Assembly: GCF_000190315.1 (NCBI RefSeq)
Contig: NC_015151.1
Coordinates: 62,001 to 126,000, forward strand
From: Vulcanisaeta moutnovskia 768-28
Lineage (GTDB): Archaea; Thermoproteota; Thermoprotei; Thermoproteales; Thermocladiaceae
Reading direction: 5' to 3'
Length of the DNA stretch: 64,000 bases
Shown here in pieces: positions 59,432-61,177 of the stretch. Under the pieces are notes generated by a model that was not told the origin of the DNA, did not search any database, and saw only the letters and a list, made by a program, of their open reading frames with translations. The stretch's first letter is position 1. Every line of letters starts with the position of its first letter. The position numbers and the translations under genes were made by a program.

Positions 59432-60457
59432 GTGGAGATTGGGCATTTCACGTGGTTACGGACACATAGGGCTAAGTACGATGTATCAAGTAGTGGTGTT
59501 AAGCCAATACAACTGGACGAGATAATAAAACTTGGTGAAGCGAGTAATTTCATTGAGGATTTAATGAGTATTTATGGTGTTGATAGGAGGAATTTAGCAA
59601 TTACCCATGGTACACAGGAGGGTAACTTCGCCGCTTTAACCGCATTGAGGGAATTAGGGTTAATTGAGAGAGTAATTACTGTAATACCTGAGTATGAACC
59701 AATAAGAGTACTACCGAAGTTCCTTCGTTTAAGGCAAACTGAATTGAACATTAATAAATCATTAACTGAATTATTTAATAATATTGAGAGAGGTTCAGCG
59801 CTCTTCTTCTCGAATCCGAACAATCCTCTCGGTACATTTCTGAATAAGAAATTACTTTGGGAGTTAAGTGATGAGTTAAGAAGGAGAAATGCCTATGCTG
59901 TAATCGATTCAATATTTCTAGAATTCGTTGAGAATAATCTTAAGGACCTGCCCATGGAGAATATAATCTTCACCTTCAGCACATCAAAGTTCTACACAAT
60001 GAATGAGATTAAGGTTGGTTGGGTCGTCGGTGATAATGAGATAGTGAAGGAGATTAATGGAATAATTGATCTAGTAAGTCCGCTCGTTATCGACTTAAAT
60101 CTAAAATACGTATCAATACTCCTACGGAATAGGAGTTGGGTTAGGGAAAGGAACCTAGGCATAATAATACCAAATGTAGATACTATGAGAAAGGTGATTA
60201 ATGAGATTAGTGACTACGTCAGTATTAGTTACGTGGAATACATGCCCATACTCTATATAAGGACCAAATGCCAGGAAATTACAGGAAGCACATTCGCAAA
60301 TAAGTTACTAAGTAGGGATATCCTGACAGTACCTGGGCAGTACTTCGGCAAAGATGATGGTATTAGGATTGGGTTAGGGTCGGTTAAGAGAGATATATTT
60401 GAGGAAGCAATGAGAATCATAATGAATGCAATCAATGAAGAATGCGGAAGAAGATGA
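59432..60457 (+). CDS. PLP-dependent aminotransferase, class I/II fold
   Basis: The 341-residue fold-type I enzyme has the substrate/PLP segment THGTQEGNFAALTAL, SNPNNPLGTFL (the NPxNPTG-like motif), and the PLP lysine K186 in FTFSTSKFYTMNEIKVGW. The C-terminal PGQYFGKDDGIRIGLGS holds the conserved Arg. Similar small class I/II enzymes include histidinol-phosphate-like and aspartate-like aminotransferases. The amino acid is not predictable. The gene is divergent from glpK and starts with GTG 59432. Confidence 0.8.
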   Translation: MEIGHFTWLRTHRAKYDVSSSGVKPIQLDEIIKLGEASNFIEDLMSIYGVDRRNLAITHGTQEGNFAALTALRELGLIERVITVIPEYEPIRVLPKFLRLRQTELNINKSLTELFNNIERGSALFFSNPNNPLGTFLNKKLLWELSDELRRRNAYAVIDSIFLEFVENNLKDLPMENIIFTFSTSKFYTMNEIKVGWVVGDNEIVKEINGIIDLVSPLVIDLNLKYVSILLRNRSWVRERNLGIIIPNVDTMRKVINEISDYVSISYVEYMPILYIRTKCQEITGSTFANKLLSRDILTVPGQYFGKDDGIRIGLGSVKRDIFEEAMRIIMNAINEECGRR

Positions 60458-60465
60458 AATGTGTT

Positions 60466-60529
60466 GGGCTCCATGCCCGACGGATGCCGGCTCACAGGCC
60501 CGCGCTCCCGCGGGACTCATCGGCACGGG
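60466..60529. ncRNA. GC-rich structured RNA candidate
   Basis: A 64-bp stretch of about 75 percent GC sits in AT-rich flanks. On the plus strand it folds as a hairpin CCCGCG-CTCC-CGCGGG (60499-60514). Below it are an internal loop and the stem TGCCG/CGGCA (60485-60489 with 60521-60525), and then CCCG/CGGG (60476-60479 with 60526-60529). A small GGGC/GCCC hairpin (60466-60478) competes for the 5' arm. The minus strand folds as well: its internal loop (ATGAG opposite TGTGAG) could be a k-turn, and an ACA follows its last hairpin, hinting at an H/ACA-type guide. Strand is undecided. Confidence 0.5.
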
Positions 60530-60610
60530 AATCAATAAGAACTAATAACTTCAGCAAATAAGTCTTACTCATGATTCAACATGAATCAATAAAACACCAT
60601 AGTGCAATGA

Positions 60611-60643: not shown

Positions 60644-60898
60644 ATGGGATTAAGAATAACGATAGTACCAGTGACTGTACTATTCTCAATAATAGCCATA
60701 ATAATTATCGCTCATCAATTATACACAATAAATACTCACAGTAATCCTCCACTTAATGAAACAAACCGTATTAATAATACAATGATTACGCAAGCGATGA
60801 AGGATTATAATGGTAGTGGGATTAATTATACAACAATTATGATCGAGAGGGAGACAATGGCTAGAAATAAGCATGTAATTAGGTTATGTAATGGTTAA
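60644..60898 (+). CDS. Small single-helix membrane or secreted protein
   Basis: The 84-residue protein has one N-terminal helix (residues 5-25, VPVTVLFSIIAIIIIAHQL) and a polar extracytoplasmic tail. The tail has four N-glycosylation sequons (NET, NNT, NGS, NYT). A TATA box fits its ATG. The tail is short and basic at its end (MARNKHVIRLC). No family is recognised. It may be a surface-exposed small glycoprotein. Confidence 0.45.
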   Translation: MGLRITIVPVTVLFSIIAIIIIAHQLYTINTHSNPPLNETNRINNTMITQAMKDYNGSGINYTTIMIERETMARNKHVIRLCNG

Positions 60899-60959: not shown

Positions 60960-61047
60960 AATGCCACTAAATCCGCAATACTTAAACCAAGAACTTTAAA
61001 GAAATACCTACAAAACATCAACATTAAAGGCCGAATAATTCAACCCC

Positions 61048-61156
61048 TGGTGCGGGGGGTGGGATTCGAACCCACGCAGGCCTTCGCCAACGGGACTCCC
61101 ACGCGCAAAAAGCACATCTGAGCCCGTCCCCTTTGACCTGGCTCGGGCACCCCCGC
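61048..61156 (-). tRNA. tRNA-Leu (CAG) with an intron
   Basis: The minus strand folds as a class II tRNA. The acceptor arms GCGGGGG/CCCCCGC span 61150-61156 and 61052-61058. The T arm is GTGGG-TTCGAAT-CCCAC and the long variable arm includes TGGCGAAGGCC. The anticodon stem is ACGGG/CCCGT with loop CTCAGA...T, reading CAG. The discriminator A and an encoded CCA (61048-61050) complete it. Removing a 21-nt intron at 37/38 gives the normal length. A TATA box (61178-61186) is 26 nt before G1. Confidence 0.92.
61096..61116 (-). other. tRNA-Leu intron (position 37/38)
   Basis: The 21-nt insert begins TGTGC and has a T5 loop followed by GCGCG, forming a 5-bp helix as expected for an archaeal bulge-helix-bulge splice site. 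The exact cut may shift by one nucleotide because the flanking T is repeated. Confidence 0.75.
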
Positions 61157-61177
61157 AGGACTAATCTTCACTACGGG

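Follow-up and report, generated by a model that had tools for sequence, protein, structure and literature searches.

A GC-rich island at positions 60466-60529 of a 64,000-nucleotide stretch of Vulcanisaeta moutnovskia 768-28 DNA (contig NC_015151.1; the whole stretch is referred to here as the window) is best explained as part of a gene for an H/ACA-like guide sRNA on the minus strand, with a kink-turn that would be bound by L7Ae and arms that would place U718 of the 16S rRNA for pseudouridylation. We give this reading a probability of about 0.72. The assignment to the RNA class is well supported and the assignment of the target moderately so, while transcription, protein binding and modification are predictions from sequence. 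Such an RNA would most likely add a new guide to a kind that is known in Pyrobaculum, and would be distinct from the guides of the two Rfam families with which we compared it.

The island has a GC content of 0.766 (77%), compared with 0.419 (42%) for the window. It is the GC maximum among all 64-base stretches of the window, no other of which reaches 0.766, and the GC island of the original prediction is therefore real. The second-richest region is that of a tRNA at 61037-61162 (0.72). The island begins 8 bases 3' of the stop codon of an aminotransferase ORF (59432-60457; Pfam Aminotran_1_2), and the next plus-strand ORF lies further on. Two minus-strand ORFs cross it (60253-60495 and 60374-60535), both of which are broken by one-base indels in relatives. 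A protein gene was ruled out, the minus-strand ORFs over the island lacking frame conservation. A transposon or repeat was also ruled out, as a 121-base element occurs as a single copy in the 2,298,983-bp genome, where the second match is 23 bases long with 96% identity. The second hairpin described below resembled an anticodon arm, which raised the possibility of a tRNA-like or split tRNA gene, but no Rfam tRNA match was found there at E ≤ 10.

Two neighboring features were noted in the same part of the window. An Rfam tRNA match on the minus strand at 61051-61156 (45.2 bits) was missed by ARAGORN; by eye it reads as tRNA-Leu(CAG), its variable arm being long and its intron lying at 37/38. 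On the plus strand, an 84-aa ORF at 60644-60898 has a hydrophobic start and no Pfam match, and a similar start is found in the same place in several relatives, preceded by a conserved AT-rich box.

Read on the minus strand, the element runs 5'-UUCCCGU GCCGAU GA G U CCCGCG GGAG CGCGGG C C UGU GA GCCGGC AU CCGUCGGGC-3'. The original prediction described a long hairpin with perfect stems. What the comparison supports is a kink-turn stem-loop (60524-60486) with two short arms beside it, followed by a second short hairpin, and in the stem-loop the kink-turn and a mismatch interrupt the 6-bp stem and the 6-bp GC stem. The whole sRNA gene is placed at 60453..60536 on the minus strand; its ends are approximate, and the 5' end near 60534 is predicted from a TATA-like box. 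The block is conserved in eight genomes and corresponds to a match at 60541-60453 of the model R1 introduced below.

The upper stem pairs GCCGAU (60519..60524) with GCCGGC (60486..60491) and includes one compensatory pair. The kink-turn follows from sequence and consists of the short-strand GA (60517..60518), which is AA in 5 of 8 relatives so that the second G-A pair becomes A-A, opposite a 3-base UGU bulge and the long-strand GA (60492..60496), of which UGA is invariant in 8 of 8. The 60492..60496 segment aligns with CUGUGA of Pyrobac-1 and CUAUGA of PyrR204. The plus strand has no such motif and reads UC-UC there. The apical part (60497..60516) comprises a G-C pair, a mismatch, a CCCGCG/CGCGGG stem and a GGAG loop; over the eight relatives 100% of its cells are paired, with one compensatory pair. 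The G-C pair and the mismatch past it are both found in all eight, the mismatch being U, C or A opposite C. Together, the six pairs and two G-A layers give a GA stem of eight layers, or of ten if stacking continues through the C-A mismatch and the G-U pair beneath them.

Two candidate guide arms flank this stem. The 5' arm, UUCCCGU (60525..60531), adjoins it, and the arms of five species can pair with 16S GGGG. The 3' arm, CCGUCGGGC (60475..60483), contains CCGUCGGG, which is invariant in 8 of 8. Overlapping the 3' arm is the second hairpin, GGGC-AUGGA-GCCC (60466..60478), with 85.7% of cells paired and no double changes. All that represents a lower stem is CCCG/CGGG between the arms, four pairs over a lopsided 1/6 loop that are present in 8 of 8. 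This arm-arm pairing and the second hairpin are mutually exclusive, and both exclude target pairing at the same bases. Further downstream, the sequence ACACA (60460..60464) may be an ACA box, although it comes late: by visual inspection of the alignment, its position holds ANA in five and NCA in three of the eight relatives, at a distance of about 20-27 nt from the stem, and a motif this short could arise by chance. No ANA box is present 14-15 nt from the stem in the alignment of the element.

The folding-energy z-score of the 121-nt element was -2.09 for the plus and -0.72 for the minus strand; when the 82-nt minus-strand RNA is folded, its minimum-energy structure differs from the kink-turn fold. 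Folding thermodynamics alone is weak evidence, and for that reason single-strand folding was dropped; the proposed structure draws its support from comparison between genomes. Over eight sequences, the 13-pair hairpin formed by the two stems is 97.1% paired, whereas slid controls reach 27-51%. A lack of compensatory changes in relatives had been named as evidence that would go against the original prediction; such changes do occur, as 2 of the 13 pairs change on both sides, from C-G to U-A, one in each stem.

In the family, 16 genomes were read at one locus each, in the region after the same aminotransferase gene. The block is present at eight of these loci, all from the window's genus, and the other eight are without it there. 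Within the genus the element is syntenic, lying beside the aminotransferase gene in 8 of 12 genomes; those without it are G020, G021 and G022 (54-84% complete) and G024 (99% complete). Mean pairwise identity is about 0.8 in the block and falls to 0.2-0.4 in much of the flanking spacer. Conservation in the spacer is poor except at the TATA-like box, at the element and in an AT-rich block near the start of the 60644-60898 ORF. A model, R1, was built from the eight carrier sequences and searched in 81 genomes of the class. It finds its eight members, by construction, at E-values of 5e-22 to 5e-27, and its next-best matches, at E about 0.001, are in G009 and G022. These distant matches have other arms and may be class relatives rather than orthologs.

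Two further kink-turn hairpins, L149 in G022 and L150 in G009, have the downstream letters CCCCTTTGCTCCCC in common and are probably another guide family of the archaeal family to which Vulcanisaeta belongs. A pattern scan of genome contigs returned 102 stretches, 5 from records named Vulcanisaeta and 97 under other names; there were three pattern matches in viral contigs.

The strand is indicated by a TATA-like promoter box, CTTATTT (60556..60562, minus strand), that is conserved upstream of the stem. All eight relatives have either CTTATTT or TTTATAT at a distance of 38-44 bases upstream of the stem, the pattern having been chosen after the alignment had been seen. Archaeal TATA boxes lie about 25 bases from the transcription start, so the predicted start would be about 10 bases before the stem, which fits a 5' arm. 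The conserved box points to transcription of the minus strand.

Scanning Rfam at a relaxed threshold gave matches to Pyrobac-1 (20.3 bits; cut-off 40) and PyrR204 (19.7 bits; cut-off 71). Both matches are confined to the minus strand, and their alignments run through the kink-turn. The original prediction, of an unknown small RNA, had offered a minus-strand guide of H/ACA type as one option, with an Rfam scan as a check. That option is the one favored, given a kink-turn signature confined to the minus strand and the matches to two H/ACA-like Pyrobaculum families, which fall below the gathering cut-offs. The RNA appears H/ACA-like and is not canonical H/ACA.

A whole-genome Pyrobac-1 search covered 45 genomes of the order. 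At E ≤ 1 Pyrobac-1 matched 4 of the 12 genus genomes, in each case at the element (G000, G015, G016 and G017; E 0.018-0.34). PyrR204 matched 7 of the 12 at the same threshold, four of them at the element: the element was its sole match in G000, G016, G017 and G019, and the match was something else in G022, G023 and G024. Because 3 of the 14 control genomes also give matches at E ≤ 1 with each Rfam model, single E-values prove nothing, and it is the repeated selection of the same locus that counts. By their arms, TGACGGTGTCTGG and GGCGGGGTGCC, Pyrobac-1 copies (loci L083-L090 and L104-L112 taken together) can be sorted into two sets; in the Pyrobaculum copies of both sets a short hairpin apparently comes directly after the 3' arm, as judged by eye.

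The PyrR204 match in G023 proved to be a PyrR204-like RNA, which a DNA search places at C1:553789-553847 on the minus strand of G000 (locus L292) and also finds in other genomes. L292 was not reported by the Rfam PyrR204 model in G000. Across eight aligned genus genomes, the shared letters of the PyrR204-like RNA are ACCACACAGAG.CCCG, with CGGGCC.ATGAAGGTC following the loop, and an upstream TTATTAAA resembles a TATA box. Its scaffold is nearly the same as that of the element and its arms are different (G000 and seven other genomes aligned). We considered the element as a PyrR204 ortholog and rejected this because G000 and G023 carry both RNAs.

The 3' arm is complementary over nine bases to GCCCGACGG of the 16S rRNA, with U718 directly after. 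U718 aligns to about E. coli position 757, in the context GCCCGACGGUGAGGGG, and the pairing uses the register that gives the stem ten layers. The best duplex of the 3' arm with the 16S rRNA has an energy of -22.7 kcal/mol, which 39 of 2000 shuffled arms reach; when 1000 pieces of 23S rRNA take the place of the arm, 40 reach it. We then scored both arms jointly over 579 conserved uridines in five species, using column shuffles that keep conservation. With a spacer of 2 or 3 bases, 0 of 3000 shuffles reach the score at U718 (0 of 400 in a first run); with the canonical 2-base spacer only, 152 of 3000 do. The 3-base spacer was allowed only after the 16S site had been seen. Pairing at U718 needs the 3-base spacer or an adjoining C-A mismatch in 4 of the 5 species scored, and is gap-free only in G017, which has UU in its 5' arm. 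The joint score at U718 is -31.5 and that of the next-best conserved rRNA site -20.8; a target at 16S U291 was set aside as weaker (-20.8). A scan of tRNA loci covering 30 of 44 tRNA matches, flanks included, returned nothing convincing. We grade U718 as a probable target, since the spacer is anomalous and was allowed post hoc, and since 152 of 3000 shuffles reach the score at the canonical spacer.

These features suggest how the RNA might act. Transcription of the minus strand would yield an sRNA of about 75-85 nt, whose kink-turn, with its UGU bulge and G-A pairs, would be bound by L7Ae; Cbf5-Nop10-Gar1 would join. The target would be held by the single-stranded arms on either side of the 6-bp stem, the 3' arm pairing with GCCCGACGG and the 5' arm, CCC(U/C), with 16S GGGG, and U718 would be placed in the active site and isomerised to pseudouridine. 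An extended version of this model, which we consider speculative and rather unlikely, is that of a guide subtype lacking a lower stem, whose 3' arm is sequestered by the second hairpin (or by the 5' arm) until rRNA displaces it, with an unusual 3-base gap at the 16S uridine (about E. coli 757). Guides of this subtype, built on one common scaffold but with arms that can be exchanged, would make up a whole set in Vulcanisaeta and in its family. The element offers a concrete and cheaply testable candidate target in the 16S rRNA, and an sRNA gene explains a GC island missed by the Rfam cut-offs.

One alternative reading concerns the target. A kink-turn sRNA of the same class could act on a tRNA, the 23S rRNA or an mRNA, or could serve an L7Ae-binding role without modification. 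The spacer of the 16S pairing is anomalous and with the canonical spacer the pairing is only moderately beyond chance; arm conservation may stem from arm-arm pairing, and extra-ribosomal targets have been proposed for H/ACA-like guides (PMC4652768). However, no other conserved rRNA site comes near the score of U718 (-20.8 versus -31.5), and an invariant target would fit the fact that CCGUCGGG does not vary among the eight genomes. On balance we regard a different target or role as rather unlikely.

Readings outside the class fare less well. The element could instead belong to the mRNA of the convergent aminotransferase gene, on the plus strand, as a structured 3' end or an element for processing. 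This would agree with its start a few bases past the stop codon in G000, and with its position at the 3' end of the gene in all eight carriers. We consider this reading very improbable, given that the kink-turn letters are on the minus strand only, with UC-UC on the plus strand, that the conserved TATA-like box points to minus-strand transcription, and that the aminotransferase gene is found without the element in other genomes such as G024 and G022. We find it hardly credible that the island is a chance GC-rich spacer, mutationally conserved and lacking any RNA function. The unexceptional minus-strand folding energy would agree with such a spacer, but the excess of block identity (about 0.8) over much of the flanking spacer (0.2-0.4), the compensatory pairs and the recurrence of the scaffold at a second locus all speak against it.

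The H/ACA-like guide sRNA that we favor has counterparts among known systems. With the canonical archaeal H/ACA sRNAs of Pyrococcus and Sulfolobus it would share the L7Ae/Cbf5 machinery, which is presumed, and two-arm target binding. Canonical H/ACA sRNAs have a lower stem of 7-9 bp and an ACA box 14-15 nt from the upper stem, whereas the element has at most four residual pairs and no ANA box at that distance. The titles and abstract openings that we found describe no H/ACA-like RNAs from Vulcanisaeta; the class was reportedly first described by Bernick in 2012 (RNA 18:402), a source outside that scope.

According to PMC4652768, H/ACA-like sRNAs are transcribed, L7Ae/Cbf5-bound guides of pseudouridylation, and those without a lower stem are described as Pyrobaculum-specific. 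The sR203-sR210 type is a single hairpin with an embedded kink-turn, and in sR204, 208, 209 and 210 the two G-A pairs are followed by a single base pair and then by a bulge or mismatch. The GA stem has 8 to 13 layers, ten being the length called productive, and the lower stem is truncated to single strands with residual pairs at most. An ANA or NCA box lies at 14-15 nt from the stem or as much as 10-12 residues beyond that, and the target is paired by two arms around a UN dinucleotide, a 3-base spacer being an anomaly (PMC4652768). The element shares with this type its one kink-turn hairpin, the mismatch beyond the G-C pair, a GA stem of eight layers and a truncated lower stem.

Pyrobac-1 (RF01722), reportedly described by Weinberg et al. 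in 2010, has the same GAG...CUGUGA kink-turn letters, the G-C pair plus mismatch and a GC-rich apical stem; below the kink-turn, the model has a 9-bp stem where that of the element has 6 bp, the arms differ, and the element's 20.3 of 40 bits is under the gathering cut-off. The name Pyrobac-1 also appears in PMC2864571. Like PyrR204 (RF02802, sR204), the element has two single-stranded arms, lacks a real lower stem and forms a kink-turn hairpin in which the G-A pairs are topped by one pair and then by a mismatch; unlike it, the element scores below the gathering cut-off (19.7 of 71 bits) and has CCGUCGGG where PyrR204 and its Vulcanisaeta relatives end in CCCCGGCC. Two Vulcanisaeta loci with one kink-turn scaffold and different arms suggest that this form of guide extends beyond Pyrobaculum.
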